DNA of 64,000 bases from Bradyrhizobium ottawaense (GTDB taxonomy: Bacteria > Pseudomonadota > Alphaproteobacteria > Rhizobiales > Xanthobacteraceae). The notes beneath the pieces were generated by a model that was not told the origin of the DNA, made no database searches, and saw only the letters and a list, made by a program, of their open reading frames with translations. Shown here one piece after another: positions 1-15,458 of this stretch. The DNA is taken from assembly GCF_002278135.3 (NCBI RefSeq), contig NZ_CP029425.2:3696001-3760000 (forward strand). Direction: 5' to 3'. Within the stretch, counting starts at the first letter, position 1, and every line of letters starts with the position of its first letter. A program made the translations under genes and the position numbers.

Positions 1-795
1 ATGGTCGACGACGGGCTTGGGCGTGCCGCGCGGCGCGTAGAGGCCGTACCAGGTCGTGACATTGAACTCGGGAACGCCGGCTTCGGTCGAGGTCGGCACA
101 TCAGGCAGCGTCGCGACACGCGTCTTGCTGGTGATGGCATAGCCCTTGATCGTCTTCGACTGGATGTACGGCGTCGGCCCTGTCGCGGGATCGCAATAGA
201 CGTCGATGTGGCCTGCGATGACGTCGTTCAGCGCCGGTCCGCCGCCCTTGTAGTAGATCGGGGTGAGCTTGGTATCGGTGGCGCTCATGAACATCAGGCC
301 GCAGAGCTGCGAGGCCGAGCCGAGACCGACATTGCCGAAAGTGACCTTGTCACCGGCGTTGCGGATATGCGCGACCAGCTCGCCGAGATCCTTGGCTGGA
401 AAATTCGGTCGCGCCACCAGGATCATCGGGACGTCGGTGACGAGCCCGATCGGGGCGAAATCGCCGACCGGGTCGAACGGCAGCTTGGCGTAGAGGGCAG
501 GCGCGGTGGCCTGGCCGACATGCATCAGCAGCAGCGTGTAGCCATCCGCGGCCGCCTTGGCGACGCGGTTGGTGCCGAGCGTGCCGCCGGCACCGACGAC
601 ATTCTCGATGACGATGGACTGTTTCAGCGTCGCGCTCATGGCGCTGCCGAGGATACGTGCGATGACGTCGCCGGGACCGCCGGCGGAGAACGGCACGATC
701 ATCGTGACCGGGCGATTGGGAAAGTCGTCAGCGAGCGCTGCGCCGCAGGGATGAAGTAGGAGGAACAGGATCAGCGATCGTACGAGAAACTTCAT
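1..795 (-). CDS. Bug/TctC-family tricarboxylate-type substrate-binding protein (3' end outside window)
   Basis: The reading frame is open from an ATG at 795 to the left edge, giving 265 residues of a family usually near 320, so the C-terminus lies outside the window. Residues 1-22 form a Sec signal peptide (hydrophobic core, then ALA before the mature start). The mature N-terminus shows the Bug-family signature FPNRPV followed by IVPFSAGGPGD (residues 25-43), and later the GYTLL and PDVPTSTEAG motifs typical of the family. Such periplasmic proteins bind carboxylates and normally serve TctAB transporters or act as sensors. It is the last visible gene of the leftward operon, 24 nt after the GntR gene. 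No TctA or TctB gene is in the window, so it may be an orphan receptor or its partners may lie further left. Confidence 0.88.
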   Translation of the reverse strand, partial: MKFLVRSLILFLLLHPCGAALADDFPNRPVTMIVPFSAGGPGDVIARILGSAMSATLKQSIVIENVVGAGGTLGTNRVAKAAADGYTLLLMHVGQATAPALYAKLPFDPVGDFAPIGLVTDVPMILVARPNFPAKDLGELVAHIRNAGDKVTFGNVGLGSASQLCGLMFMSATDTKLTPIYYKGGGPALNDVIAGHIDVYCDPATGPTPYIQSKTIKGYAITSKTRVATLPDVPTSTEAGVPEFNVTTWYGLYAPRGTPKPVVDH

Positions 796-819
796 CGAAC
801 ACTCCCTGGCGGCATTATT

Positions 820-1536
820 CTAGTCGTCGGAAGGCGCCGCCTCCTTGGCCGCCGACGATTTTTCGATCATGTCGAGCGCGGCCACCGCGGCCGCGTTGAT
901 GTGGTCGACGCAGCAACGCTCGGCGAGATCCGGATCGCCGTTCTGGATCGCACGCCAGATCGCGGTGACCTCGCGCAGACTCTTGTTGATCCGCTTCGGT
1001 TGCGACATCGAGGTGATCCGCAGCAGCTGGATGCGATCGTGCAGCGGCTTGAGCATGCGCTGGATAAACGCATTGCGGCAGCCGCCGATCAGCGCCGCGT
1101 AGAAATCGGTCTTGGCTTCGAGGCATCCGACGAGGTCTTGCTTGGCCGCGGCCGCCTTCAGCCGTGTCAGGGCGTCGCCGATCCGGCGTGCCACTTCGGG
1201 GTCGTGAAGCCTGGCGCATTCGCGGCCGGCGAATCCTTCGAGCACTGCGCGCGCCGCGTAGAGCTGCCGGGCCTCTTCGAGGCTGATCGTGGACACCACG
1301 GGGCCGCGGTGCGGAACCGTATTGACCAGCCCGTCGGCTTCGAGCGCACGCAGCGCTTCGCGGATCGAGGGGCGGCTGACGCCCATCATCTCGCAGAGCT
1401 CGCGCTCGACCAGGCGCTGGCCCGGCTTCAGCGTTCCCGACATGATCGCCTCACGCAGCTTCTGCGCCACCATCGCCCGGACGGTCGGGACGTCCTCGAT
1501 GCGGAGTGTCGACTGCAATTCGTTGCGTCTTTCCAT
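820..1536 (-). CDS. GntR-family transcriptional regulator, FCD subfamily
   Basis: This 238-residue protein has an N-terminal winged helix-turn-helix (about residues 18-78, with GVSRPSIREALRALEADGLV) and an all-helical FCD ligand domain (about 85-220). FCD regulators sense small carboxylates and usually control the neighbouring catabolic genes. Oddly, the usual FCD metal ligands look mostly lost: the positions expected to hold Asp, His and His are K142, Y146 and V190, and only H212 remains, judged by eye against the family pattern. It sits inside the leftward operon, 24 nt upstream of the Bug gene and 23 nt after an SDR. The palindrome at 12033-12043 between the two arms of the cluster is its most likely operator. 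Confidence 0.9.
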   Translation of the reverse strand: MERRNELQSTLRIEDVPTVRAMVAQKLREAIMSGTLKPGQRLVERELCEMMGVSRPSIREALRALEADGLVNTVPHRGPVVSTISLEEARQLYAARAVLEGFAGRECARLHDPEVARRIGDALTRLKAAAAKQDLVGCLEAKTDFYAALIGGCRNAFIQRMLKPLHDRIQLLRITSMSQPKRINKSLREVTAIWRAIQNGDPDLAERCCVDHINAAAVAALDMIEKSSAAKEAAPSDD

Positions 1537-1559
1537 GTCCGGGTCCTGTTCGGGAAAAC

Positions 1560-2300
1560 TCAGTACCGGTTTACAGGCAGAATCATCATTTCGGCAATTT
1601 GAACGTGGGCGGGCTGGTCGAGCGCGAAGACGATCGAGCGGGCGATATCGGCCGGATCGAGCGCCATCCTGAACTGGTCGAAATAGTCCTTTTCCTTCTG
1701 CTGATCGCCGCGGTAGCGGGTCAGGATGATGTTGGTCCGGGTCAGGCCGGGCTGCAGCTCGGTCACCCGGATCGCGGTTTCCGCCAGCTCGCCCCGGAGG
1801 GTCTCGGTGAACATGTGCACGCCCGCCTTGCTGGTGCTGTACGCCGCCATGTCGGGCACGATCCGCACCGCGTTGATGGAGCTGATGTTGACGATGTGGC
1901 CGGCGTTGCGCTGGACCATGCCGGGAAGGATCGCGCGCGTGACGCGCATCAGGCCGATCAGGTTGGTCTGGATGATGCTGGACCAGTCGTCCGCAGAACC
2001 GATGTCGAAGCGCGTCCGGCCGCCGATGTCGTGGCCGGCATTGTTGATGAGAACGTCGACCGGCTTGAAATGACCGGGAATGGCATCCGGCAGGCGATCG
2101 ACGGCCGTTGCATCGCTGACGTCGAGCTGGATCGGAAACACCGCATCGCCCGCCGTCGCCGCCAGCTCTTCAAGCGCCTTGGCGTCGCGATCGACCAGCA
2201 CGACGCGGCGGCCGCTATCCAGCAGTGCCTTGGTGATGGCGCGTCCCATGCCGCCGGCGGCACCCGTCAGCACCACGGTCTGGCCTGATTGTTCAGTCAT
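1560..2300 (-). CDS. SDR-family NAD(P)-dependent oxidoreductase
   Basis: A classical short-chain dehydrogenase of 246 residues. The nucleotide-binding TGAAGGMG is at 12-19, NNAG at 86-89, the catalytic Ser near 140-141, and the YSTSK active site gives Y154 and K158. The closest family flavour is the YdfG-like branch that oxidises or reduces beta-hydroxy acids or aldehydes. It lies 23 nt upstream of the GntR gene and 22 nt after another SDR in the leftward operon, so it probably performs one redox step of the same pathway. The substrate cannot be named from the sequence. Confidence 0.88.
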   Translation of the reverse strand: MTEQSGQTVVLTGAAGGMGRAITKALLDSGRRVVLVDRDAKALEELAATAGDAVFPIQLDVSDATAVDRLPDAIPGHFKPVDVLINNAGHDIGGRTRFDIGSADDWSSIIQTNLIGLMRVTRAILPGMVQRNAGHIVNISSINAVRIVPDMAAYSTSKAGVHMFTETLRGELAETAIRVTELQPGLTRTNIILTRYRGDQQKEKDYFDQFRMALDPADIARSIVFALDQPAHVQIAEMMILPVNRY

Positions 2301-2322
2301 CGCTGCACTCCCATTCCAGTTC

Positions 2323-3102
2323 TCATGCCACCGACCAGCCGCCGTCGATCGGCAGGCTGGCGCCGGTGATGTCGTTCGCGGCCGGACCGCAGAGGAAGAC
2401 GACCATGGCGGCGACGGCGTCCATTTCGACGAAGCGCTGCGTCGGCTGGCGCTCGCCGAGATAGTCGCGCGTCACGTCCTCGACCGGACGATCGCTGCTC
2501 GATGCCATCGTCGCGATCTTGTTCAGGATCGCGGGCGTCGGCAGCGTGCCTGGGCAGAGCGTGTTGCAGGTGATGCCGCTGCGTGCCGTCTCGATGGCGA
2601 CGGCGCGGGTCATGCCTGCAATTGCGGTCTTGGTGGTGACGTAGTCGATGCGGTCCTCGACCGCGCGGCTGGAATAGATCGAGCCCATGTTGACGATCCG
2701 GCCCCAGCCGCGATGCTTCATCGCAGGCAGCGCCAGGCGGATGAGGTGGAACGGCGCCGACAAATTGACGGCGAGGGCCTCATCCCAGCGCTCGGGCGGA
2801 AACTGTTCGATGGCAGAGAAATGCCGCACGACGGCATTGTTGACGAGGATGTCGATGGCGCCGCAGCGGTCGAGCAGGTCCGCCATCATGGCCTCGATCC
2901 CCTCGCGCCGGGACAGATCGGCGCCGGCGGCGATGACCTCCACGCCGAAGCGGGCGCGGAGGTCATCCGCGGCCTGCTTCGGCGTGTCGAGATCGTGAAG
3001 GACGATATTGGCGCCCGCGCCGGCAAGGCCTTCGGCGATAGCGAGGCCGAGGCCCGCGGTCGCGCCGGTCACGAGTGCCCATTTGCCCTTCATCGCAGCC
3101 AC
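2323..3102 (-). CDS. SDR-family oxidoreductase, 3-hydroxybutyrate-dehydrogenase-like
   Basis: This is a 259-residue short-chain dehydrogenase with TGATAGLG at 12-19, catalytic S141, Y154 and K158 (YVTTK), and the C-terminal ITGASLPIDGGW motif near 246-257. Its overall layout resembles D-3-hydroxybutyrate dehydrogenase and 3-oxoacyl reductases. The usual NNAG motif reads NNAV (88-91), a mild departure. The start lies only 6 nt after the stop of the CMD-like gene, so translation is likely coupled; an internal ATG at codon 4 is an alternative start. It belongs to the leftward operon and probably acts on a hydroxyacid or enol intermediate. Confidence 0.88.
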   Translation of the reverse strand: MAAMKGKWALVTGATAGLGLAIAEGLAGAGANIVLHDLDTPKQAADDLRARFGVEVIAAGADLSRREGIEAMMADLLDRCGAIDILVNNAVVRHFSAIEQFPPERWDEALAVNLSAPFHLIRLALPAMKHRGWGRIVNMGSIYSSRAVEDRIDYVTTKTAIAGMTRAVAIETARSGITCNTLCPGTLPTPAILNKIATMASSSDRPVEDVTRDYLGERQPTQRFVEMDAVAAMVVFLCGPAANDITGASLPIDGGWSVA

Positions 3103-3108
3103 GCTCCG

Positions 3109-3489
3109 CTACTTCTTGTCGAGCTCGGCGAAGACTTCCTTCGCATTCCGAAATGCATCCACGCCGGCCGGCACGCCGCAATAGATTGCGACCTGCATGA
3201 AGACCTCGCGGATTTCCTCCTTGGTCGCGCCATTGGCGAGCGCGCCGCGGACATGGGTCTTCAGCTCATGAGGACGGTTGAGTGCGCAGAGCATCGCCAG
3301 ATTGAGGAAGCTGCGCGTCTTTCGTGTGAGGCCCTCGCGGCCCCAGACGTAACCCCAGCAATATTCCGTGGTGAGGTCCTGCATCGGCCGGTTGAACTCG
3401 TCGGCGGATGCGATCGCCTTGTCGACGAATTCGTTGCCGAGCACGCTCTTGCGGATTTCGAGGCCGCGGTCGTAGGTCGCTTTGTCCAT
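3109..3489 (-). CDS. Carboxymuconolactone decarboxylase-family protein (PcaC-like)
   Basis: The 126-residue protein matches the single-domain gamma-carboxymuconolactone decarboxylase family in length and in the C-terminal block (TKEEIREVFMQVAIYCGVPA, about residues 88-107). PcaC decarboxylates 4-carboxymuconolactone in the beta-ketoadipate route; relatives in this superfamily also act as peroxidases, so the reaction is not certain. It lacks the CxxC of the AhpD peroxidase branch, which favours a decarboxylase or isomerase-like role. A close paralogue lies on the opposite arm at 13523-13912. It stands 41 nt after a binding-protein gene and 6 nt before an SDR. Confidence 0.88.
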   Translation of the reverse strand: MDKATYDRGLEIRKSVLGNEFVDKAIASADEFNRPMQDLTTEYCWGYVWGREGLTRKTRSFLNLAMLCALNRPHELKTHVRGALANGATKEEIREVFMQVAIYCGVPAGVDAFRNAKEVFAELDKK

Positions 3490-3530
3490 TGTGGTCTCCG
3501 TTTCTTGGTTTGGCGCCCTCAGCTCTCAGG

Positions 3531-4769
3531 TCAACTCTTGGGCCAGAACGGTTTTGCCCGCGCGAGTTCGGGCGGGAACACCGTCACCGGCACGCCGGCT
3601 TGCCACTGCACGATGGTCATGCCGGCGCCGACGCGGCGGCCCTTCTCGTCGAATTTGATCTCGCCCAGCGGGTAATATTTGGAGGGGCCGCCATCCATGG
3701 TGCGCAGCGCTTCGCCGACGGCGACGCGATCGGCCTTGCCGGCCTTCTCCAGCGCGTCCTTGATCACCCACATGTCGCCATAGGTGGAGATCGCGTTCTG
3801 CGTCATCCACGGCTCCTTGTAGCGCGTCTTCAACTCGGCGATCAGCGCCTCATGGCCCTTGGCGCCCCAACTGGCGACGCACGTCAACACGCCCTGGAGC
3901 AGCTCGGGGCTGACGGTCTGCAGCATGTCCGGCTCGGCGATCGCGATGCCGAACGAGATCGTCGGCACCTTGCCCTGGCCGAGGCCAAATTCGTTCATCT
4001 TCTCGAGCAGCAGTTTTGCATCCGAGATCACCGTCGGCAGGAAGAACAGCAGGTCGGGCTTGGCCGAACGGATCTTCTGCACCAGTGAGGTTGCGTCAGC
4101 GAGCGGCGGGGTGAACGTCTCGTCGACGATCAGCTGCAACTGGTTCTCCGCCAGCAGGCCCTCGCGCATTGCCTTGGCGGAGGCGATCGAGGCGCCCGTG
4201 TTGTCGGTGAGGATCGCGACCGTCTTCGGCCGCTTGCCTGAGGCCGTCTCCGCCAGCTTGATGAGCTGGGGCAACGCCTGCCGTGCCTGCGACCCCGCGG
4301 TGGCCGCGGTCTGGAACACGTATTTGAATCCGCGCTCGGTGATGAGATCCGAATAGGAGAGGGTGAGCATCGGCAGGTTGGCGCGCTCGGTCACCTCGGT
4401 CACCGCGAGGGTGAACGAGGACAGATAGGCGCCGCTGGCCGCGACCAGATCGGTCTCCTGCGCCACCATGCGCTGTGCCGCGTTCTTGGCCTTCTCCGTG
4501 GTATCGCCGGAATCGAGCACGACGAGCTTCAGCTTGGCGCCGCCGAGCGCCTTGACGCCGCCTTGCGCGTTGATGTGATCAATCGCCATCTCGGCGCCTT
4601 CGCGCATCACCGTTCCCGGGCGGGCATAGAGCCCCGAGATCGGCACCAGCAGGCCGACCTTCACTTCAGAAGGTTGCTGCGCCCAGCCGGCGCGGGACGC
4701 GATCAGCGTGCCGGAGGCGCCGGCCAGCAGGGTTCGCCGCGATATCGTGATCTTGCTCTTTGCAGTCAT
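3531..4769 (-). CDS. ABC transporter substrate-binding protein, Leu/Ile/Val (LivK) type, Tat signal
   Basis: The start at 4769 gives 412 residues beginning with a twin-arginine signal (ISRRTLLAGA, residues 9-18) and a cleavage region near GWAQQ. Longer upstream reading adds an Arg/Ser-rich stretch with no signal character, so it was rejected. The mature part has the type I periplasmic-binding fold (EVKVGLLVPISGLYARPG, MAIDHINAQGG). It is strongly paralogous to the next gene (4801-6036). Both are expected to deliver ligand to the LivHMGF-type transporter encoded upstream. Ligands of this group range from branched amino acids to aromatic and aliphatic carboxylates. Confidence 0.9.
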   Translation of the reverse strand: MTAKSKITISRRTLLAGASGTLIASRAGWAQQPSEVKVGLLVPISGLYARPGTVMREGAEMAIDHINAQGGVKALGGAKLKLVVLDSGDTTEKAKNAAQRMVAQETDLVAASGAYLSSFTLAVTEVTERANLPMLTLSYSDLITERGFKYVFQTAATAGSQARQALPQLIKLAETASGKRPKTVAILTDNTGASIASAKAMREGLLAENQLQLIVDETFTPPLADATSLVQKIRSAKPDLLFFLPTVISDAKLLLEKMNEFGLGQGKVPTISFGIAIAEPDMLQTVSPELLQGVLTCVASWGAKGHEALIAELKTRYKEPWMTQNAISTYGDMWVIKDALEKAGKADRVAVGEALRTMDGGPSKYYPLGEIKFDEKGRRVGAGMTIVQWQAGVPVTVFPPELARAKPFWPKS

Positions 4770-4800
4770 GACAGTCTCCTCCCCAGGATTTGCGCGACGC

Positions 4801-6036
4801 CTAGGATTTCTTCGGCCAGAACGGCTGCGCCTGCGCGAGCTCGGGCGGATAAACGGTGACAGGCACGCCCGATTGCCATTGCACGATGACGACGCCGGCG
4901 CCGACGCGGCGGCCCCTCTCGTCGAATTTGAGCTGGCCGCCCGGGTAATATTTCGACGGGCCGGCATCCATGGTGCGGAAGGCCTGCGCGACCGCGTTGC
5001 GGTCGGCCTTGCCGGCCTTCTCCAGCGCTTCCTTCATCAGCCACATGTCGCCATAGGTCGAGATGACGTTCTGGGTCATCCAGGGCTCCTTGTATTTGGC
5101 CTTGAGCTCCGCGATCAGCGCCTCGTGGCCCTTCGAGCCCCAATTGGCGACGATGGTCATGATGCCCTGCACGGTCTCCGGGCTCACGCTCTGCAGCATG
5201 TCGGGCTCGGCGATGGTGATGCTGAAGGACACGGTCGGGATCTTGCCCTGGCCGAGGCCGAACTCGCTGATCTTCTCGAGGCCAAGCTTGGCGTCCGACA
5301 CTGCATTGGGCATGAACAGCAGCAGATCGGGCTTGGCCGAGCGAACTTTCTGGATCAGCGGCGTCGCATCCGACAGCGGCGGCGTCCAGACTTCCTCGAC
5401 CACGAGCTGGAGGCCCTCCTGCGCGAACAGCCTCTCCTTGAGCGCCTTGGCGGTGGCCACCGACGTTGCGGTGTTGTCCATGAGCATCGCCACGGTCTTC
5501 GGCTTCTTGCCCGAGGCATTCTCGGCCAGCTTCATCAGCGTCGGCAGGCCGAGCTCTGACTGGCGGCTCGCGGTCGCTGCGGTCTGGAAAATGTATTTGA
5601 AGCCGCGGTCAGTCAGCAGGTCCGAATAGGACAGCGTCAGCACAGGCAGCTCGGCGCGCTCGGTCACCTCGGTGACCGCCAGCGTGAAGGAGGACAGATA
5701 GGAGCCGGTCGCGGCGACCAGATCTGGCTCCTGCGCCACCATGCGCTGTGCCGCGTTCTTGGCTTTCTCGGTGGTGTCGCCGCAGTCGATCACGACCAGC
5801 TTCAGCTTGGCGCCGCCGAGCGCCTTGATGCCGCCCTGCGCGTTGATGTGTTCGATGCCCATCTCGGCACCCATCTTCATCACCTGGCCGGGGCGGGTGT
5901 AGATGCCCGACAGCGGCACGATCAGTCCGACCTTGATCTCGCCAGGTGCCTGCGCGCGCGCAACGCCGGCGAGGCCGACGGCGGCGGCGCCGGAGAGCAC
6001 GGTGCGGCGACTCAGTCCTTTTGAAGTCTTGTTCAT
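4801..6036 (-). CDS. ABC transporter substrate-binding protein, LivK type, Tat signal (paralogue)
   Basis: This is a 411-residue paralogue of the downstream neighbour, sharing long near-identical blocks such as GGAKLKLVVIDCGDTTEKAK. The start at 6036 places a twin-arginine motif (LSRRTVLSGAA) at residues 9-19, followed by ARAQAPGEIKVGLIVPLSG. The fold is the type I periplasmic binding protein. It sits 31 nt upstream of the other binding protein and 34 nt after the livF-like gene. Two similar receptors with one membrane complex suggest a recent tandem duplication that widened or tuned ligand range. Confidence 0.9.
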   Translation of the reverse strand: MNKTSKGLSRRTVLSGAAAVGLAGVARAQAPGEIKVGLIVPLSGIYTRPGQVMKMGAEMGIEHINAQGGIKALGGAKLKLVVIDCGDTTEKAKNAAQRMVAQEPDLVAATGSYLSSFTLAVTEVTERAELPVLTLSYSDLLTDRGFKYIFQTAATASRQSELGLPTLMKLAENASGKKPKTVAMLMDNTATSVATAKALKERLFAQEGLQLVVEEVWTPPLSDATPLIQKVRSAKPDLLLFMPNAVSDAKLGLEKISEFGLGQGKIPTVSFSITIAEPDMLQSVSPETVQGIMTIVANWGSKGHEALIAELKAKYKEPWMTQNVISTYGDMWLMKEALEKAGKADRNAVAQAFRTMDAGPSKYYPGGQLKFDERGRRVGAGVVIVQWQSGVPVTVYPPELAQAQPFWPKKS

Positions 6037-6070
6037 TTTGTTTCTCCCTGATCTTTGTTTTTTGTGTTGG

Positions 6071-6764
6071 TCACATGCCGAGATAGGCTTTGCGCACGCG
6101 GTCATCGGCGCGCAGCGTAGCGTTGTTGCCTTCGAGCACGACGTGTCCGGCTTCGAGGACATAGCCGTGGTCGGCGGATTCCAGCGCTTCCGCGACGCGC
6201 TGCTCGACCAGCAGCATGGTCAGCCCGGACTGGCGGCGGATCTCGATCAGCCGCTCGAAGATGAAGTCCGCGGTCGAGGGCGCGAGCCCCATCGAGGGCT
6301 CGTCCAGCATCAGAAGCTTCGGGGAGGAGGCGAGGCCGCGGCCGATCGCGAGCATCTGCTGCTGGCCGCCGGACATCGTACCCGCGAATTGATCGCGGCG
6401 CTCCTTCAGCACCGGCAGCCATTCGAAGATGCGCTCGATATTGGCTTGCCAGTCGCGGCGGCCGCTCTCGGTCATCGCGCCCATTTCCAGATTCTCCATC
6501 ACGGTCAGCGACGGGAAAACCTGGCGTCCCTCCGGGACGTGGGCGATGCCGAGATGGGCGCGCTGCGGCGGCGGCACTGCGAGCAGGTCGACGCCGTCGA
6601 ACGTGATCGCGCCGCCGCTGGGCTTGACGATGCCGGAGATCGTCTTGAACAGCGTGGTCTTGCCGGCGCCGTTGGGTCCGACGATCGCGACGAACTGGCC
6701 CGCGCCGACATTGATCGAGACGTCGTTCAGGACGGGCTTGGCCGAATAGCCCGCGCTCAATCCC

Positions 6765-6778
<14 letters not shown>
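6071..6778 (-). CDS. ABC transporter ATP-binding protein, LivF type
   Basis: The 235-residue ATPase has Walker A GPNGAGKT (34-41), signature MSGGQQQ (135-141), Walker B LLMLDE (155-160) and the VEQ switch region expected of LivF. It powers import by the branched-chain-type (HAAT) transporter together with the fused LivM-LivG and LivH. The gene overlaps the fusion gene by 14 nt, a sign of translational coupling. The first signature residue is Met where Leu is usual, a common tolerance in LivF. Confidence 0.93.
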
Positions 6779-8539
<1,761 letters not shown>

Positions 8540-8543
<4 letters not shown>

Positions 8544-9475
8544 GTCCTCTCCACCATGCGCCCGAAGAAGCCTTGCGGGCGGAAGAAGATGATGAGGAGG
8601 AAGACGGCGAAGATCGCGGCGTTCTGCAATTGTGTCGGCAGGATCAGCGTCGACATCTGCTGCACGAGGCCGATCGTCATGCCGCCCCAGAAGGCGCCGA
8701 TGATGCTGCCCATGCCGCCGAGCACGACGCCGGCATACATGACGATGACGTATTCAAGACCGACGAAGGGGTGGAACGGGTAGTTGGTGGCGAGCAGGCC
8801 GCCGGCAATCGCGGTGATGCCGCAGCCGAGTGCGAAGGCGGTGCGATGCGCGCGGTCGACGTCGATGCCCATATAGGTCGCTGCCGTCGGATTGTCCGCG
8901 GCGGCGCGGAGCGACTTGCCGATCCGCGTGCGCGTGATCAGCAACGAGAGCAGGATCATGATCGCCAGCGAGACGATCATATCGATGCTGCGGGCCTTGT
9001 TGAGGAAGATGCTCATGTCGAAGAAGGGCCCGAGCTCCCACGCCGAGCTCGACAGCGGCGTACGGATCGAGGCCAGCACCGAGCCGAACACGATGAGGCC
9101 GCCGTTCTGCAGGATCAGCGCGATGCCGAGCGTGAGGATGAGCTGGGCGTAATGGCCTTCGCCTTCGAGCGAGGCAGTACGTGTCCCGGAGACGTGCGAA
9201 ATCAAAGCCAGATGCACGAAATAGCCGAACACGGCGAGCACCGGCCCGGCCAGCAGGATGGCGACGAACGGCCCCACGGCATTGCCGAACAGCGTCTGGA
9301 TGCCGGCGGCGGTGAAGAGATAGAAGGCGGTGTACATGCCGAGCATCATGAAATCGCCATGGGCGAAGTTGATGACGCGCATGACGCCGAAGATCAGGCC
9401 GAGCCCGACGCACATCAGGCCATAGACGGCGCCGATCAAAAGCCCCGCGGCGAGCGCTTGCAGAAAGCCTTCCAT
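8540..9475 (-). CDS. ABC transporter permease, LivH type
   Basis: The start at 9475 (MEGFLQALAAGLLIGAVYGL) gives a 311-residue polytopic protein with about eight hydrophobic segments. It carries the LivH signatures GLGLIFGVMRVINFAHGDF and GMGSIIGAFWGG. It pairs with the fused LivM to form the translocation pore. The upstream extension to 9613 is polar and lacks family similarity, so it was excluded. Its stop overlaps the start of the fusion gene. A 103-nt gap separates it from the MmgE/PrpD gene upstream, long enough for an internal promoter. Confidence 0.92.
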
Positions 9476-9578
9476 CAGCCTGGCCTCCGAGTATCGGCTT
9501 GCCGGCAGCCATGCGCCGATGGCATTACTAAGCTGGTCTCGAAATCGACCATGTTTCCCCCGTACTCTCCGGCACTTC

Positions 9579-10973
9579 TCATGATGCCGGTCGTAAAGCC
9601 CGTTCCGTTGCATTCAGGCGGCACTGCGCGGCGATGTCGCCTGCATGGCCGAGCTGCTCGCAATCGTCGATGAGTTGCTCGAGCCGCCGCACGCGATCCT
9701 CGCCGAGGCCTCCGGCTGCCGAGCTGCGAAAGCGTGCGCGAATATCGGCAGGTGTTGCGGCGATGACGTCGGGCAGAGCGTGCCGGATGGTCCGGCCGCC
9801 GCGCAGCTGCACGGTGACCTCCGCACCCTGCTTGCCGGGGAAGGCGGCGGTGAAGGCGGGATCTGCCTTGAGATCGGTGACCGCCACGAGGCGGATGATG
9901 TCGGCATCATCGAGCTCGGCGTAGTTCTCTTCCTCGATCTCGCCCCGCGCCAGCGTCGCCGCGACGCTGAAGGGAATGCTCATCTTGGCCTGGAGCGCGT
10001 TGCGGTAGGGCCCCATGGAATCGCAGCCGGGATAGCGCACCGCAGCGTCGGGCGCGCGGATGACGACGTGGTCGATCTCGTCGACGCTGGCGAGCTCGTG
10101 TGAGACGCGAAGCGCGGCCTGTGCCGCTGTCTGCGCGAAATTGCAGGCGGGGACCGGCTTGTTGTAGACGGCCATGATCTCGCACTCGCCATTGGGGAAG
10201 AGCGCGATGCTCTCCGGCGCGGGCTGGCGGCGATAGGCGGCGAACAGGCCGGCTTCACCCTCCAGTATGGTTTCCGAGCCGAAGGCGCCGGCCGCGGCAA
10301 GGCCAATTGCCTTGATCGCATTGCCGGCGGCAAAGCCGGGATGGAAATACATGTCGGAGCCGCCGGCATGCGGCCACTCGTTGAGACCGCTGGAGGTATT
10401 GGCCGCGATCGCGATGGCGCTGGTCGCCTGGGCCTCGGAGAGGCCGAGCGCGAAACTTCCCGCGAGCGCTGCGCCCAGAGGGGCCACGAGGCCCGTCGGG
10501 CGATAGAGGCGTGCGAGGTCCGAGGTCAGCAGCGCGCGGCCGATCCGCGCGCCGGTCTCATAGCCGATGATGGCGGCCGCGAGCAGCCTGTCCCCGCGCA
10601 GCGGCGTCTGTTCCGACAGCGCGAGCAGGGCCGGCCAGATCACGACGCCGTGGTGCGCGATGCTGGCCGCATGCATGTCTTCCCGCACGAGGCCGTGCCC
10701 CATGACGGCATTGGCGAAGGCTGCGTCGGCCGGCGAGGAAAGCTGCGACGTCCCGATGATCGTTGCGCTGCCGCCGGCCTGCGCAATCGCAACCGCCTGG
10801 CGGCTCCAGGGATGATGGCCGGCCTCGAAGGCGCAGGACAGGAAGTCGAGCAGGCAGAGCTTTGCCTTGGCAATGACGTCCTGCCCGAAATAGCCAATAT
10901 CCAGCGCAAGCACGCTCCGCGCCATCTGACGCGCGAGCGGGACCTTGCCTGATGCGGTCGGACCGATCGTCAT
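9579..10973 (-). CDS. MmgE/PrpD-family protein (first copy)
   Basis: The 464-residue protein has the two-domain MmgE/PrpD layout: a helical N-terminal domain with the motif GHGLVREDMH near residues 92-101 and a C-terminal alpha/beta domain. Family members include 2-methylcitrate dehydratase, cis-aconitate decarboxylase and iminodisuccinate epimerase, so a dehydratase, decarboxylase or epimerase acting on a polycarboxylate is likely. It follows the hydroxyacid dehydrogenase gene by 28 nt. A second, clearly different member lies on the other arm (12124-13479). Substrate is not predictable. Confidence 0.88.
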   Translation of the reverse strand: MTIGPTASGKVPLARQMARSVLALDIGYFGQDVIAKAKLCLLDFLSCAFEAGHHPWSRQAVAIAQAGGSATIIGTSQLSSPADAAFANAVMGHGLVREDMHAASIAHHGVVIWPALLALSEQTPLRGDRLLAAAIIGYETGARIGRALLTSDLARLYRPTGLVAPLGAALAGSFALGLSEAQATSAIAIAANTSSGLNEWPHAGGSDMYFHPGFAAGNAIKAIGLAAAGAFGSETILEGEAGLFAAYRRQPAPESIALFPNGECEIMAVYNKPVPACNFAQTAAQAALRVSHELASVDEIDHVVIRAPDAAVRYPGCDSMGPYRNALQAKMSIPFSVAATLARGEIEEENYAELDDADIIRLVAVTDLKADPAFTAAFPGKQGAEVTVQLRGGRTIRHALPDVIAATPADIRARFRSSAAGGLGEDRVRRLEQLIDDCEQLGHAGDIAAQCRLNATERALRPAS

Positions 10974-11001
10974 CGCGGGTCGCTCTCCCTGGCTTGCGCG
11001 A

Positions 11002-11895
11002 TCAGCCGCGCATCTCGACCCCGGCCCACTCCTCGAGCACCTTGGCGATCGAGGTGAAGTCGGATGAGGCGCCGTATTTGGCGTTGGTGATCGCGAGCAT
11101 CTGCCGCACCACCGCGCCGCAGACCATCGGCACGCCCATGGCCTCGGCCTCGTCCACGCAGAGACGAACGTCCTTGTAGGAGAGGCCGGTGGCGAAGCCG
11201 AAATCGAAGGTACCGGGCAGCACCGCGCGGGGGAATTTGTCTTCGGAGGCGCTGTTGCGGCCGCTGCTGGCGTTGATGATGTCGATCAGCACCTTGGCAT
11301 TGACGCCGCCCTTGACGCCCATCGCGACGGCTTCCGAGGTGATCACGAGGGCTGCGGCCGCCATCAGGTTGTTGGCGAGCTTAGCCGTCTGCGCCACGCC
11401 GGGCTTGTCGCCGGTGTAGAACAGCTTGCCAAAGTTCTTCAGGATCGGCTGCACGATGTCGTAAGTCGCCTGCGGGCACGAGACCATCACCGCCAGCGTG
11501 CCGTTGACGGCGCCCTTGATGCCGCCGCTCACGGGCGCATCGACCAGGGTCATCCCCTTGGCCTTCAAGCCTTCCGCAACGAGCTTCGCAGCGCCTGGAC
11601 CCGACGTCGAGAGATCGATGACGATCTTCGCACGGTTGCCGCTGCCGATGCCGTCCTGGCCGAGCGCAACGGCCTTGACGATGTCGGGCGTCGGCAGGCT
11701 GGCGAGCACGATGTCGGAGCGTGAGGCGACGTCGGCCGGCGAGCTGGCGAGGAGCGCGCCACGCTTGACCAGCGGCTGAGTCGCCTCGGCCTGCGTGTCA
11801 TAGACGACGAGCGAATAGCCCGCGTCCATCAATCGTCCCGCCATCGGACCGCCCATGCGGCCCGTGCCGATTACGCCGAGAATCTCTCCCGCCAT
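11002..11895 (-). CDS. 3-hydroxyisobutyrate/tartronate-semialdehyde dehydrogenase-family oxidoreductase
   Basis: Starting at 11895 the protein has 297 residues. The dinucleotide motif GTGRMG is at 10-15, the substrate loop DAPVSGG at 119-125 and the catalytic lysine in AKLANN (K172), all diagnostic of beta-hydroxyacid dehydrogenases. The upstream extension to 12060 would run through the promoter region and is not supported. It is the first gene of the leftward arm, so it is expected to respond directly to the operator at 12033-12043. It probably interconverts a beta-hydroxy acid and a semialdehyde. Confidence 0.9.
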   Translation of the reverse strand: MAGEILGVIGTGRMGGPMAGRLMDAGYSLVVYDTQAEATQPLVKRGALLASSPADVASRSDIVLASLPTPDIVKAVALGQDGIGSGNRAKIVIDLSTSGPGAAKLVAEGLKAKGMTLVDAPVSGGIKGAVNGTLAVMVSCPQATYDIVQPILKNFGKLFYTGDKPGVAQTAKLANNLMAAAALVITSEAVAMGVKGGVNAKVLIDIINASSGRNSASEDKFPRAVLPGTFDFGFATGLSYKDVRLCVDEAEAMGVPMVCGAVVRQMLAITNAKYGASSDFTSIAKVLEEWAGVEMRG

Positions 11896-12022
11896 CGTCT
11901 GCTCCCTGTCGCGCGATCCCGTGACGGGCGCGCCTTCTTGATCTCGTTGGTCGATCGTCATCGCCGGCCGGCCGTCTCGGCCGCCGTCGTCGTGGCAGCG
12001 GGGTCCCGCGCCAACGGGCCGG

Positions 12023-12060
12023 ATTGTTATGATTGTCAGACAAGCTGTCAAGCATAACAT
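12023..12060. promoter_or_regulatory. Divergent promoter region with GntR-type operator
   Basis: The palindrome TTGTCAGACAA (12033-12043) fits the TnGTnnnACnA form bound by GntR/FCD regulators. An outer perfect inverted repeat TGTTATG / CATAACA flanks it (12025-12031 and 12053-12059). Rightward, TTGTCA (12033-12038) and TAACAT (12055-12060) with a 16-nt spacer make a fair sigma-70 promoter for 12124-15446. Leftward, TTGACA (12051 to 12046) lies 17 nt before a weak AACAAT (12028 to 12023). A repressor bound here would block both arms. Binding is inferred. Confidence 0.6.
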
Positions 12061-12123
12061 CTGGGGTCGACAGTTTGCCGCGGATCGGCATAAGGTTCGA
12101 ACAAAACGAGGAAGACGCCCCGC

Positions 12124-13479
12124 GTGCCGCCAGTCCCAATTCCGAGTGTGAGCAAGACGCTCGCCGATTTCGTCGCTGCCTCGTCATGGACGGACGTCGA
12201 GGCGCAGAGCCTTGAGGCGCGGCGATCGATTCTCAATTTCTTCGCGACGGCGCTCGGCTCCGCGCGCGATCCTGTCGTGATCGCGGCGATGCGCACGCTG
12301 TCGCCGTTCACCGGGGCCGCGACATCGACGGTCATCGGTCACTCGCAGCCGATGGATGCGTTGTGTGCATCATTTCTCAATGCCATCTCGGCCAATCTGC
12401 TCGACTTCGACGACACCCATCCCGAGACAATCATTCATCCGGCCGCGCCGGTTGCCGCGCCGATATTGGCGCTTTCGGAGATGCGCAAACTGTCGGGGCG
12501 GGATGTCTTGACCGCGTTTATTCTCGGCGTGGATGTGGAGTGCCGCATCGGCAATGCAGTCTCGCCGCGCCACTACGCGCGCGGCTGGCACATCACCTCG
12601 ACCTGCGGGATTTTTGGCGCGGCGGCGGCGTGCGCGAAACTATTGGGCCTGCCCGCTGCGGGAATCGCAAACGCGATCGGGCTTGCGGCCAGCCAGTCGG
12701 CGGGCAATGTCGAGAACCTGCCCAGTGCCGCCAAGAATGTCAGCGTGGGCAATGCGGCTCGGAACGGATTGTTCGCGGCACTGCTGGCGCAGCAGGGCTA
12801 CGAGGCATCGCCCCGCGCCATCGAGGGTCCGCTGGGCTGGGCGCGCACCATGGGTGACGAGCCCGATATTGCTCGCCTGCTCGACGGTCTCGGCAAGACC
12901 TGGGAGATTGCGAAGAACACCTACAAGCCGTATCCCGCCGGCATTGTCTTTCACGCGGTGATCGACGCCTGCCTCTCATTGCGCCAGCGCATCGGCGGGC
13001 GGGTCGACCAGATCGAGTTGGTGACGGTGCAGGGCTCGGCGCTGCTGCTGGCGCGCGGCGATCGCCCGGTCAATAACGAGCGCGATGCGCGCGTCAGCAT
13101 CCATCATTGCGTGGCTTGCGGATTATTGCTCGGCACGGCCGGGGTCGCCGAATTCACGCATGAGACGGTGGTCCGGCCCGACATCGCGCAGCTGCGGCAG
13201 AAGGTGAGGGCGGTGCTCGATGGCGCGATGCCGGATGGCGCCGCACGCGTGACGTTGCGCCTGTCGTCCGGTGAGGTCCTCACCGAGACCGTGATCGCGC
13301 CGCGTGGCAGTCTCGCCGCGCCGCTCACAGATCGCGACCTCGAGGCCAAGCTGCGCGAGGCCATGCGGACAGGTCGAAGCGATTGGGATGCGGACCGCGT
13401 CATCGACGCAATCTGGCGGCTCGATTCGGTCGACGACGTCGGCAATCTCCTGCAATCGCTGCGACCGGCATCGCGCTAA
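12124..13479 (+). CDS. MmgE/PrpD-family protein (second copy)
   Basis: This 451-residue protein begins at a GTG and has the MmgE/PrpD family pattern, including NLLDFDDTHPETIIHPAAP (about residues 93-111), where the DDTH block is characteristic, and the KPYPAGIVFHAVIDA block near 276-290. It is the first gene of the rightward arm, about 64 nt downstream of the predicted promoter. Together with the first copy it points to a pathway using two hydration, dehydration or decarboxylation steps. It is too divergent from its counterpart to be a recent duplicate. Confidence 0.87.
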   Translation: MPPVPIPSVSKTLADFVAASSWTDVEAQSLEARRSILNFFATALGSARDPVVIAAMRTLSPFTGAATSTVIGHSQPMDALCASFLNAISANLLDFDDTHPETIIHPAAPVAAPILALSEMRKLSGRDVLTAFILGVDVECRIGNAVSPRHYARGWHITSTCGIFGAAAACAKLLGLPAAGIANAIGLAASQSAGNVENLPSAAKNVSVGNAARNGLFAALLAQQGYEASPRAIEGPLGWARTMGDEPDIARLLDGLGKTWEIAKNTYKPYPAGIVFHAVIDACLSLRQRIGGRVDQIELVTVQGSALLLARGDRPVNNERDARVSIHHCVACGLLLGTAGVAEFTHETVVRPDIAQLRQKVRAVLDGAMPDGAARVTLRLSSGEVLTETVIAPRGSLAAPLTDRDLEAKLREAMRTGRSDWDADRVIDAIWRLDSVDDVGNLLQSLRPASR

Positions 13480-13522
13480 TCAACTTCCAACTCAACTCTC
13501 TCAAGACCTGAAAGGGACGATC

Positions 13523-13912
13523 ATGAGCAAGACCGAACTGTTCGAAAAGGGCCTCAAAGTTCGTAAAGAGGTGCTCGGCGAGGACTACGTCAACAAGTCG
13601 ATTGCCGGGGCCGACGAGTTCACGCGCACCATGGCGGAATGGTCGACCGAATTCTGCTGGGGTGCCCTGTGGACGCGGCCCGGCGTCGACCGGCGCACGC
13701 GCTCGATCGTCAATCTGGCGATGCTCGGCGCACTGAACCGGCCGCACGAGCTGAAGCTGCACGTCAAGGGCGCCCTGAAGAACGGGCTGACCAAGGAGGA
13801 GATCAAGGAGATCCTGCTCCAGGTCGCGGTCTATTGCGGCGTTCCCGCCGGCATCGACGCCTTCCGCAATGCGCGCGAGGCCTTCAACGAGGTTGACGCG
13901 GCGGGTTCCTGA
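13523..13912 (+). CDS. Carboxymuconolactone decarboxylase-family protein (PcaC-like, second copy)
   Basis: Starting at 13523, which has AAAGGGA about 10 nt upstream, the protein has 129 residues. It aligns closely with the leftward-arm copy at 3109-3489, sharing NLAM, ALNRPHELK and a CGVPAGIDAFRNA tail. The longer upstream reading is the tail of the previous gene in another frame. The similarity suggests duplication within the cluster, perhaps for two stereoisomers or for assembly of a heteromer. It is spaced 43 nt after the PrpD gene and 9 nt before the hydrolase gene. Confidence 0.88.
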   Translation: MSKTELFEKGLKVRKEVLGEDYVNKSIAGADEFTRTMAEWSTEFCWGALWTRPGVDRRTRSIVNLAMLGALNRPHELKLHVKGALKNGLTKEEIKEILLQVAVYCGVPAGIDAFRNAREAFNEVDAAGS

Positions 13913-13921
13913 GCAACTCCC

Positions 13922-14728
13922 ATGGCAGACCCGGACTACGAGCTGTTTGCGATCCGCTACGCGACACGGGATGCGCAGCGGAGCGAGCACTTCATCGGCG
14001 GCGATCCGCATGACGGACCGATGCCGATGGACTATTTCGTGTGGCTGGCGCGGGGAGGCGGGCGCAGCTTCGTCATCGACACCGGCTTCAACGCGGAAGT
14101 GGCCAGGCAGCGCCGGCGGAATTTCCTGCGTTGCCCGGTCGAGACGCTTGCCGCGTTCGATATCGACCCTGCCGACGTCGGGGATGTGATCCTCACGCAT
14201 CTGCACTACGACCATGTCGGTAATTTCGACCGGTTTCCGAACGCGCGATTTCATCTGCAGGAGCGCGAGCTCGCCTACGCCACCGGGCGCTATATGCAAT
14301 ATCCGCGGCTGTCGCATTCGTTCGAGGTCGAGGACGTCTGCGGGATCGTGCGGCTGAATTACGCGCGCCGGGTGCTGTTCTACGACGGCGATGCCGAGAT
14401 TGCGCCCGGCCTGACGGTGCATGTGGCCGGCGGCCATTCCGCCGGTCTTCAATTCGTCCGCGTCAACACACGCCGCGGCCCTGTCGTGCTCGCCTCCGAC
14501 GTCAGTCATTTCTACGAGAACATGACCAGCGAGCGTCCGTTCACGACGGCGTTTCATGTCGGCGACATGCTTGTCGGCTTCGACAAGCTGCGCGCCGCGG
14601 CGCCTGACGCGGACCACATCGTCCCCGGCCATGATCCGCTCGTCATGAAGCTCTACCCGGCGCCAGGCCCGGAGCTGAATGGGATTGCGGTTCGCCTCGA
14701 CGTGGCGCCGACCGCAACGCCGGCGTAA
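13922..14728 (+). CDS. MBL-fold metallo-hydrolase, N-acyl-homoserine-lactonase-like
   Basis: The 268-residue protein has the metallo-beta-lactamase motif HLHYDHVG (H93, H95, D97, H98), then H172, D193 and H237 as the remaining zinc ligands. Motif spacing and the N-terminal layout resemble the AttM/AiiA lactonase branch. In this operon, next to a carboxymuconolactone-decarboxylase-like gene, opening of a pathway lactone is the simplest role; quorum quenching is an alternative that the sequence cannot exclude. It starts 9 nt after the CMD-like stop, which suggests co-translation. Confidence 0.85.
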   Translation: MADPDYELFAIRYATRDAQRSEHFIGGDPHDGPMPMDYFVWLARGGGRSFVIDTGFNAEVARQRRRNFLRCPVETLAAFDIDPADVGDVILTHLHYDHVGNFDRFPNARFHLQERELAYATGRYMQYPRLSHSFEVEDVCGIVRLNYARRVLFYDGDAEIAPGLTVHVAGGHSAGLQFVRVNTRRGPVVLASDVSHFYENMTSERPFTTAFHVGDMLVGFDKLRAAAPDADHIVPGHDPLVMKLYPAPGPELNGIAVRLDVAPTATPA

Positions 14729-14837
14729 CCGCGCGTCGCGGGTTCCAAGTCTGCCTCTGCACCGCGGCGGTTCGGAACCAAAGCCTTCGCCTTCGCATTC
14801 GCAATGGATCGCCGAATGCGCTTGATGGTGGAGGACG

Positions 14838-15446
14838 ATGAGGGACAGCACGTCGGAAGTGGCCGAGATCAGGGAGGCCGTTCACCTCTGCATCGACATG
14901 CAGAACATTTTCGCCCCCGGCGGTCTGTGGGCGACGCCGTGGATGGATCGTGTTCTGCCGACGATCGCCTCGATCGTTGCGCGCCACCAGGCCAGAACCA
15001 TCTTCACGCGCTTCATCACGCCGCAGGATCCGGAAGATCGCCCGGGCCAGTGGCAGAGCTATTTTCATCGCTGGAGCCAGGCCACGCGCAAGCATCTGCC
15101 GCCATCCGCGCTCGAGCTCGTGCCCGCACTGAGCAAGTTCGTTCCGCCGGCTGCAATGATCGACAAGCCGGCCTATTCCGCATTCAGCAATCCCGCCCTC
15201 GCAGGCCGGCTGACCGACAAGAACGTCGGCACGGTCGTGATCTCGGGCGCCGAGACGGACGTCTGCGTGCTCTCGACGGTCCTGAGCGCGGTCGATCTCG
15301 GCTTCAGGGTCGTCATCGTCGAGGACGCCTTGTGCAGTTCGTCCGACGTCGGGCACGACGCGCTCATGACGATGTACCGCACCCGCTTTCACGGCCAGGT
15401 CGACCTGGTGACAACGGAAGAACTGGCCGAGTTCTGGCGGGAGTAG
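14838..15446 (+). CDS. Isochorismatase-like cysteine hydrolase
   Basis: The 202-residue protein shows the complete catalytic triad of the cysteine hydrolase family: D20 in CIDMQ, K110 in IDKPAYSAF and C143 in ETDVCVLS. Members include N-carbamoylsarcosine amidase, maleamate amidohydrolase, nicotinamidase and ureidoacrylate hydrolase, so release of ammonia from an amide is likely. A GGAGG precedes the start at a suitable distance. It is the last gene of the rightward arm, 109 nt after the lactonase-like gene. Its presence hints that the imported compound may contain an amide or carbamoyl group. Confidence 0.87.
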   Translation: MRDSTSEVAEIREAVHLCIDMQNIFAPGGLWATPWMDRVLPTIASIVARHQARTIFTRFITPQDPEDRPGQWQSYFHRWSQATRKHLPPSALELVPALSKFVPPAAMIDKPAYSAFSNPALAGRLTDKNVGTVVISGAETDVCVLSTVLSAVDLGFRVVIVEDALCSSSDVGHDALMTMYRTRFHGQVDLVTTEELAEFWRE

Positions 15447-15458
15447 GGGGCGATCCGC

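Follow-up and report, generated by a model that had tools for sequence, protein, structure and literature searches.

The left end of a 64,000-nucleotide stretch of Bradyrhizobium ottawaense DNA (the window; positions 3,696,001-3,760,000 of a single-contig 8.59-Mb genome) carries two divergent gene arms that include a Liv-type importer and two proteins of the MmgE/PrpD family, which we call PrpD1 and PrpD2. These genes are one conserved unit of 15 genes at most, and its two arms belong together. That the unit is both conserved and jointly regulated is, in our judgment, highly probable. The protein families point to one catabolic regulon that would degrade a branched C4-dicarboxylate, or the corresponding lactone, without coenzyme A (CoA), a reading to which we give about an even chance. 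A first-pass annotation had held that the gene set matches no named pathway, and no description of it was found in the open-access (PubMed Central, PMC) literature searched, a scope that leaves subscription journals mostly outside and absence from print unproven.

That annotation had also listed sixteen genes in two divergent arms, and Pfam scans found all of the named families again in the 16 proteins, of which 12 are encoded on the minus and 4 on the plus strand. Both arms diverge from one promoter region at about 11896-12123, the minus arm running leftwards from 11895 and the plus arm rightwards from 12124. The longest open reading frame (ORF) is overlong for several genes, and likely starts were judged by homology and motif (HIBD 11895, CMD2 13523, SBP1 4769, SBP2 6036, LivH about 9475); with these inferred starts the largest intergenic gap in the minus arm is about 100 bases (PrpD1-LivH). 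The features are listed below, where fractions give presence in the 20 fetched Bradyrhizobium regions described in the next paragraphs.

1-795, continuing to about -179, minus strand: TctC-type binding protein (Pfam TctC, 3.9e-54; 20/20).
820-1536, minus strand: GntR regulator with an FCD domain, FadR subfamily (Pfam GntR and FCD; 20/20).
1560-2300, minus strand: SDR1, short-chain dehydrogenase (adh_short, 1.4e-52; YSTSK and TGAAGGMG motifs; 13/20).
2323-3102, minus strand: SDR2, 3-hydroxybutyrate-dehydrogenase-like short-chain dehydrogenase (PHB_DH TIGR01963, 255.8 bits, below the cut-off of 307; 20/20).
3109-3489, minus strand: CMD1, PcaC-like decarboxylase family (CMD, 6e-22; TIGR02425, 152.2 bits against a cut-off of 155.7; 18/20).
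3531-4769, minus strand: SBP1, Liv-type binding protein with the RR signal motif RRTLL (Peripla_BP_6, 2.6e-52).
4801-6036, minus strand: SBP2, tandem paralogue of SBP1 (Peripla_BP_6, 5.1e-51).
6071-6778, minus strand: LivF-type ATPase (ABC_tran, 5.4e-32).
6765-8543, minus strand: LivMG, fused LivM permease and LivG ATPase (BPD_transp_2 and ABC_tran in one 592-aa ORF).
8540-9475, minus strand: LivH-type permease (BPD_transp_2, 1.9e-35).
9579-10973, minus strand: PrpD1, MmgE/PrpD protein with a rewired active site.
11002-11895, minus strand: HIBD, beta-hydroxyacid dehydrogenase of the 3-hydroxyisobutyrate dehydrogenase family (NAD_binding_2 and NAD_binding_11; KLANN motif; 20/20).
12023-12060: back-to-back promoter-like sites, minus TTGACA-17-AACAAT (12051-12023) and plus TTGTCA-16-TAACAT (12033-12060).
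12033-12043: predicted GntR operator TTGTCAGACAA, within the spacer of the minus promoter and over the first hexamer of the plus promoter.
12124-13479, plus strand: PrpD2, MmgE/PrpD protein with a near-canonical active site (Pfam; nearest solved relative iminodisuccinate (IDS) epimerase 2hp0, 8e-43).
13523-13912, plus strand: CMD2, PcaC-like decarboxylase family (CMD, 9e-22; 64% identical to CMD1; 20/20).
13922-14728, plus strand: MBL, MBL-fold hydrolase of the acyl-homoserine lactone (AHL)-lactonase-like group (Lactamase_B, 5.6e-20; HLHYDH motif; nearest solved structure 8x78, 4e-25; 17/20).
14838-15446, plus strand: isochorismatase-fold cysteine hydrolase, a neighbour (Isochorismatase, 8e-34; adjacent in 3/20).

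The conservation of the unit was followed in three sets of genomes. A PrpD2 scan of 84,980 species genomes gave 254 loci, of which the best 80 were kept; 54 of these best 80 are of the Bradyrhizobium type, one of them (L066) being a Hyphomicrobiales metagenome-assembled genome. The window proteins were searched against the 54 loci by tblastn, with at least 60% identity taken as presence, which records presence only and not order; the counts rest on tblastn because ORF calls are unreliable for overlapping frames in several high-GC loci. SDR2 was present in 51, CMD1 in 45, SBP1 in 51, SBP2 in 52, LivF, LivMG and LivH in 52 each, PrpD1 in 51, HIBD in 52, CMD2 in 53, MBL in 42 and the cysteine hydrolase in 5. 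Three loci (L047, L069, L072) are cut on the left. They are kept in the count of 54 and left out of a count of 51, where SDR2, both binding proteins, the importer, HIBD and CMD2 are present in every locus, PrpD1 in 50 (not L063), CMD1 in 45 and MBL in 39.

The 10-kb flanks of these loci do not extend to the unit's left end, and a further set of 20 regions, each 20 kb long, was fetched for that reason. Among the 79 genomes described below, 32 carry PrpD2 with at least 65% identity, and the regions were hand-picked from these; the two PrpD1-less genomes of the 32, G320 and G361, are not included. Several regions come from strains that also contribute to the 54 loci, which makes the two sets dependent. 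With presence set at 65% identity or more, TctC, GntR, SDR2, both binding proteins, the whole importer, PrpD1, HIBD, PrpD2 and CMD2 occur in all 20 regions, CMD1 in 18, MBL in 17, SDR1 in 13 and the cysteine hydrolase in three. The order is the same in 20/20 regions: TctC, GntR, SDR1, SDR2, CMD1, SBP1, SBP2, LivF, LivMG, LivH, PrpD1 and HIBD on the left, then PrpD2, CMD2 and MBL on the right, with SDR1, CMD1 and MBL sometimes absent.

The third set comprised 79 genomes sampled evenly across the genus and searched for PrpD1, PrpD2, MBL and the cysteine hydrolase. PrpD2 (E to 1e-100) was found in 35 and PrpD1 in 31, all of which have PrpD2; PrpD1 was found in none of the 44 genomes without PrpD2 (Fisher p 6e-18, nominal since the genomes are related). 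In 29 of the 31 genomes the two genes share a contig and lie no more than about 3 kb apart; in G359 they are split over two contigs, and in G312 the distance is about 8 kb. PrpD2 occurs without PrpD1 in G319, G320, G338 and G361. The pair thus occurs in roughly two fifths of the sampled genomes, and 44 of the 79 yielded neither gene. A rare co-occurrence of the arms in other genomes would have refuted the first-pass annotation; the 54 loci, the 20 regions and the 79 genomes speak strongly for the opposite. Furthermore, in the 8.59 Mb of the source genome MBL has just 2 matches (E to 1e-60) and CMD has 5 (E to 1e-10), those of the unit included, so that a chance co-location is unlikely. PrpD2 is 99% identical to a protein named Bradyrhizobium japonicum, and, by the search output, PrpD2 matches in two Bradyrhizobium genomes (G318:C1:2111823 and G544:C118:18787) carry one in-frame TGA each.

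The joint regulation is suggested by the gap between HIBD and PrpD2. Its middle is poorly conserved except for a block at about 12031-12060 and the stretch before PrpD2. The block holds a palindrome, TTGTCAG[A/T]CAA, that occurs in 62 of 68 distinct intergenic sequences, with TTGTCAGACAA exact in 35/68, TTGTCAGTCAA in 27/68 and other variants in 6; the 68 come from 78 rows by removal of identical copies only, and some genomes may appear twice. The exact pattern TTGTCNGACAA is found in 38 of 74 Bradyrhizobium loci, and in the aligned count most of the others carry the TTGTCAGTCAA form. Across the 8.59-Mb genome, TTGTCNGACAA occurs at 6 places, and a version with an A/T centre only at 12033-12043. 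A promoter scan of 11800-15700 found 2 sites against a mean of 0.6 in shuffles, and the palindrome lies across both predicted promoters, which suggests one regulon. By eye, a half-site-like CTGTCAA stands beside the palindrome.

For FadR-subfamily regulators, the available text of PMC4494728 gives the consensus TKGT-N3-ACMA and carboxylic acids as effectors. The GntR protein has the GntR helix-turn-helix and FCD domains of this subfamily, and a TKGT-N3-ACMA palindrome lies in the promoter region of the divergent arms, as in the regulons of that source. GntR is a likely repressor of both arms and would act through the predicted operator. Unlike the regulons in the accessible part of PMC4494728, the GntR gene here lies about 10.5 kb from the predicted site, within the regulated operon. 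No NCBIfam regulator model scores above its cut-off for GntR, the best being TIGR03338 (128 bits, cut-off 271.5). Sites of the same type are found in two versions of the unit from other bacteria, at 11517 (GntR/CMD gap) and 14400 (CMD/TctC gap) of the Pseudoroseomonas cervicalis plasmid version and at 7972 (CMD/HIBD gap) of the Paracoccaceae version.

The two MmgE/PrpD proteins are 27% identical to each other. Both carry the MmgE_PrpD_N and MmgE_PrpD_C domains and belong to the family by domains and fold, and for both the solved structure that scores best by sequence is IDS epimerase (2hp0, from Agrobacterium tumefaciens BY6). PMC12290011, as far as its text is available, states that the known substrates of the family all have a 1,4-dicarboxylate backbone, that enolate chemistry is proposed for all, and that H85, D88, H99, H150, K198 and K266 (IDS epimerase numbering) are conserved in all members; excerpts of PMC7347537 propose H99 and the tyrosine Y145 as the bases. 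In PrpD2 the pocket is N91, D94, H105, Y151, H156, K204 and K268 in 69/69 distinct sequences (at least 60% identity). It therefore retains all of these residues but the first, i.e., five of the six stated family residues and the tyrosine, and shares D88, H99, Y145, H150, K198 and K266 with IDS epimerase, with Asn in place of H85. The pocket of PrpD1 is different: H93, V96, H107, L153, R158 and K272, with no Lys at the K198 position, in 66/66 distinct sequences (at least 54%; here and for PrpD2, only identical copies were removed). PrpD1 keeps only H85, H99 and K266, lacks D88, Y145, H150 and K198, and is thus a family member that breaks the residue rule.

The strict conservation of the PrpD1 residues argues against a decaying copy. 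In a set of six distinct PrpD1-type sequences (drawn from L116, L137, L138, L140, L142, L143 and L149, and partly contained in the 66), positions 93, 100, 107, 158 and 272 are identical in 6/6; position 96 is either V or L, and position 153 either L or F. No Lys was found near the K198 position of PrpD1 in any alignment tried, where the residue at 206-208 depends on the alignment. An equivalence of D/E at 207 with K198 was considered and dropped, as an ungapped alignment gives M208 and MAFFT gives S206. The predicted PrpD1 model has the MmgE/PrpD family fold (mean predicted local distance difference test (pLDDT) score 83.5), with low confidence at 101-103, 152-156 and 195-207, near the altered residues. 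The residues of cis-aconitate decarboxylase (IRG1) include D93, T97, K207 and K272. Three more, H103, H159 and H277, are given in the available part of PMC7347537. PrpD2 has all seven in 59/59 sequences (at least 60% identity), but most of the seven are also present in relatives whose activities differ; PrpD1 has only H103 and K272.

Reading the enzyme roles from the protein families, we suggest the following transport and degradation scheme. The FadR-type GntR, whose gene lies close to the distal end of the left operon, would bind TTGTCAGACAA and shut both promoters until it is released by a carboxylic-acid inducer. Uptake of a small branched carboxylate would then fall to the Liv-type importer and its two paralogous binding proteins, and the enzymes of the unit would break this compound down without CoA activation. 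If the substrate contains a lactone, MBL would open it. PrpD2 would use His105, Tyr151 and Lys268 for enolate chemistry on a C4 1,4-dicarboxylate backbone, be it an isomerisation, a dehydration or a decarboxylation, and HIBD and the SDRs would oxidise a hydroxymethyl or beta-hydroxy group. The PcaC-like CMD proteins could then remove a carboxylate that has become labile after oxidation, giving a semialdehyde or keto acid for central metabolism. PrpD1, which is without the acid, the lysine and the tyrosine of the usual pocket, may take a related intermediate that lacks the second carboxylate or carries it in masked form. A fitting paraconate-type path would run from the lactone to hydroxymethylsuccinate, formylsuccinate and succinate semialdehyde. 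We consider this specific order of steps unlikely to be right in its details; for the substrate class, a branched carboxylate or lactone, we see the case as evenly poised.

A partial precedent is the itaconate-methylsuccinate cluster of Pseudomonas aeruginosa and Cupriavidus necator (PA0878-PA0886). In the available portions of PMC9875883 and PMC12290011, it has a putative dicarboxylate transporter and an MmgE/PrpD isomerase, the latter shown in 2025 to be an (S)-(R)-methylsuccinate isomerase (PMC12290011). In P. aeruginosa it combines this isomerase with a 2-hydroxyparaconate lactonase in one dicarboxylate cluster, a likeness to units that contain MBL (PMC9875883, as far as accessible). However, the lactonase is the small (127-aa) RdoPA, no CMD, HIBD or SDR is among the genes given in these portions, and the cluster uses CoA activation (Ict, Ich, Ccl). 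Pfam scans of the 16 proteins here found no CoA-dependent enzyme family, with no CoA transferase, itaconyl-CoA hydratase or citramalyl-CoA lyase among them, and, as a difference from IDS epimerase, no lyase family. The first-pass annotation had imagined a substrate with a carboxylate, a lactone and an amide. With the partial precedent of itaconate, 2-hydroxyparaconate and methylsuccinate, a carboxylated lactone-type substrate is a chemically plausible hypothesis; the amide has fared less well, as described below.

Versions of the unit, some with the same type of transporter and some with others, also occur outside the Bradyrhizobium core. At fixed thresholds, 53 non-core rows were examined for four partners near the PrpD protein, namely HIBD, MBL, SDR2 and CMD; the rows include repeats (L012/L147, L014/L146, L015/L145) and short loci, L143 and L144 are from Bradyrhizobium, and none was dropped. 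Three or four partners were found in 13 rows (one of them L143), two in 6 and one in 5. Ferrovibrio (L075) has a LysR regulator, the series HIBD-CMD-MBL-SDR2-PrpD2-CMD, SDR1, another PrpD and an NMT1-type importer. Acetobacteraceae also carry versions of the module, and HIBD, MBL, SDR2 and PrpD2 are found in Roseococcus, Humitalea and Pseudoroseomonas (L083, L091, L092). Plasmid 3 of Variovorax sp. SRS16 (L150) encodes LacI, SDR, PrpD, PcaC-like, HIBD, MBL and TctC proteins, and a Paracoccaceae plasmid (L151) encodes TctAB, CMD, HIBD, PrpD, an AiiB-like MBL, a 3-hydroxybutyrate-dehydrogenase-like SDR and a GntR-type regulator. The Pseudoroseomonas cervicalis plasmid (L149) has a Liv importer with fused LivMG, MBL, SDR, a PrpD1-type protein at about 50%, GntR, CMDs, TctC and two NAD(P)-dependent oxidoreductases that are only 33% like HIBD; no PrpD2 was found beside PrpD1 in this stretch. 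The plasmid matches come from lists of 15 and 25 rows, of which four stretches were viewed (H1, H16, H17, H26), and H26 has only a HIBD-type gene beside PrpD. In three of ten distant genomes, SDR2 finds its best genome-wide match beside PrpD2. A partly available source also places an mmgE gene near opine genes on a succinamopine plasmid.

Several observations weigh against one regulon for CoA-free catabolism of this substrate. MBL is absent beside 3 of the 20 regions and 12 of the 54 loci, and CMD1 beside 2 of the 20; thus, neither is indispensable. None of the four partners was found in 29 of the 53 non-core rows at the thresholds used, some rows being short or cut, which indicates that PrpD2-like proteins also work in other settings. 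The operator pattern was not found in L137, L138, L140, L141, L143 and L146, although a GntR homologue is encoded in two of these (L138 and L146). Conversely, the pattern matches in L092, L097, L139, L148 and L152, where it is not tied to such a divergent gap. The Asn at the first pocket His of PrpD2 recurs in 104 of 113 sequences (at least 37% identity). In the Variovorax version, three CoA transferases, an enoyl-CoA hydratase and a thiolase lie directly downstream, so that a CoA-free route is not favoured there; these genes may be the entry of the product to central metabolism in that organism. Finally, L138, L139 and L147 stand near sugar or sugar-acid genes, with a DctP binding protein also among such neighbours, and these point to a different substrate class.

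The last of these observations bears on the best surviving alternative, a sugar-acid lactone pathway, which we consider unlikely. The substrate of the unit would then be an aldonic or aldaric acid, perhaps a branched one, together with the lactone of this acid; PrpD2 would act on an oxidised C4-C6 acid, and HIBD would make or use a tartronate-semialdehyde-like product. The surroundings of L138 hold an RraA-type aldolase as well as an RbsB-like sugar binding protein; L139 lies near SMP-30 and GMC proteins, and L147 near a family-1-type binding protein and a talarate/galactarate-dehydratase-like protein of the enolase superfamily (243 bits, below the cut-off of 500). The Variovorax cluster has an annotated LacI-type regulator, and inspection by eye showed LacI-like starts in Acetobacteraceae loci. 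HIBD itself scores 198 bits to 2-hydroxy-3-oxopropionate reductase (cut-off 397). However, the sugar-type neighbours may be separate operons, and the 16 proteins of the Bradyrhizobium unit include no sugar-type transporter, kinase, aldolase or sugar-acid dehydratase. HIBD has both domains of the family of 3-hydroxyisobutyrate, 2-(hydroxymethyl)glutarate and tartronate-semialdehyde dehydrogenases and its conserved Lys segment (KLANN), but it falls below every NCBIfam cut-off compared, including that of 3-hydroxyisobutyrate dehydrogenase (TIGR01692, 202 bits against 291.6).

A side branch of aromatic (beta-ketoadipate-like) catabolism, with CMD as PcaC and MBL replacing the enol-lactonase PcaD, is very unlikely. 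The CMD family is common to both systems, and Liv-type binding proteins include aromatic-acid binders. On the PcaC model TIGR02425, CMD2 reaches 132.9 bits and CMD1 narrowly misses the cut-off. This cut-off was dropped as a sole argument against PcaC, because a CMD linked to pca genes in the same genome also misses it, at 154.5 bits, and the model does not separate CMD1 from it. The pca cluster, with a PcaD-type protein above its cut-off, the C-terminal piece of a PcaB-type protein and this CMD, lies elsewhere in the genome, whereas CMD1 and CMD2 have no pca neighbours and the unit contains no pca family, including PcaB, and no ring-cleavage dioxygenase. By pairwise identity, CMD1 is closer to CMD2 than to the pca-linked CMD (42%). 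At position 1304475 of the source genome (L155), a third CMD protein (61% to CMD1) adjoins another HIBD-type dehydrogenase, and the CMD and HIBD pair recurs there as a separate small unit.

More improbable still is the scavenging of quorum signals or other signal lactones, in which MBL would be an acyl-homoserine lactonase and the rest of the unit would use the products. MBL resembles AiiA-type lactonases and carries the HxHxDH motif, but it scores 62.0, 54.4 and 39.3 bits on the AiiA, AttM and AidB models, whose cut-offs are 375, 390 and 360. Many units are without MBL, and no fatty-acid catabolism family is present in the unit. A 2-methylcitrate cycle or aconitate metabolism in another gene order is hardly credible: it would explain two MmgE/PrpD proteins, but PrpD1 and PrpD2 lie far under the cut-off of the 2-methylcitrate dehydratase model TIGR02330 (37.1 and 29.9 bits against 458), no PrpB- or PrpC-type family is in the unit, and a Liv importer would be unexpected. 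The plain pca, 2-methylcitrate and AHL-lactonase readings were rejected on these NCBIfam scores and on the separate pca locus. As for MBL proteins in general, at least one match (E to 1e-60) is found in 77 of the 79 genomes, and a paralogue of about 50-54% identity, which lies at 553209 of the source genome and in comparable positions of most Bradyrhizobium genomes sampled, is very common in the genus, unlike the MBL of the unit.

The reading that we favor over these alternatives, in which a branched C4-dicarboxylate or the corresponding lactone is degraded without CoA, could be extended. PrpD1 may be the founder of a new MmgE/PrpD class within a new CoA-free route for such substrates that is Alphaproteobacteria-wide, with transporters swapped; we regard this bolder proposal, which is drawn from sequence comparison, as tentative and rather unlikely. 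In it, the base and the enolate lysine are kept, D88 is changed to V, Y145 to L and H150 to R, and K198 is lost. If this is true, the enolate chemistry of PrpD1 would take place on something other than a 1,4-diacid, at odds with the rule stated for the family. If active, PrpD1 also tests the claim that every family member binds a 1,4-dicarboxylate through the same residues. MmgE/PrpD proteins are widespread, and the accessible text of PMC12290011 calls them "quite diverse and poorly characterized" and gives four activities. Here, two of them occur with a candidate operator, a dedicated importer and few partner enzymes in a mutable genus, which makes the substrate directly testable. Its identity would assign function to two protein subfamilies simultaneously.

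The importer itself is complete, with two permeases, two ATPases and a Peripla_BP_6 binding protein as in Liv (HAAT) ABC importers, and with LivM and LivG fused. SBP1 is 68% identical to SBP2, and its predicted structure is poor (mean pLDDT 59.6). The TctC protein appears to be an orphan here, since no TctA or TctB was found beside it; its gene extends beyond the window and is full in the fetched region L009.

The cysteine hydrolase was ruled out as a member of the unit. It adjoins the unit in 3/20 regions and 5/54 loci (overlapping genome sets) and PrpD2 in four of the 79 genomes (G000, G346, G353, G354). Matches (E to 1e-40) are found in 51 of the 79, mostly distant from PrpD2 and in genomes with or without the unit. 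The first-pass annotation had counted both MBL and the cysteine hydrolase as components; MBL is a common yet dispensable one. As the cysteine hydrolase is so rarely adjacent, the amide half of the earlier substrate idea falls with it, and an amide substrate is rejected. A second, apparently shortened cysteine hydrolase match lies at 621853-622317 of the genome (79% over 155 of 202 residues).

The term island, also used at first, is apt for the block of genes and not for its composition, as the G+C is level throughout and the same as in the rest of the window; a compositional island is thus ruled out. At the right end, a protein with a C-terminal DUF305/DUF4142-like domain (window 15459-16634) adjoins the unit in 2/20 regions (L117, L126). 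To the left of the unit (L009, about 8613-11587) lie DUF1326, PpoB2 (copper-chaperone family) and CobW genes, a separate and possibly metal-related group.

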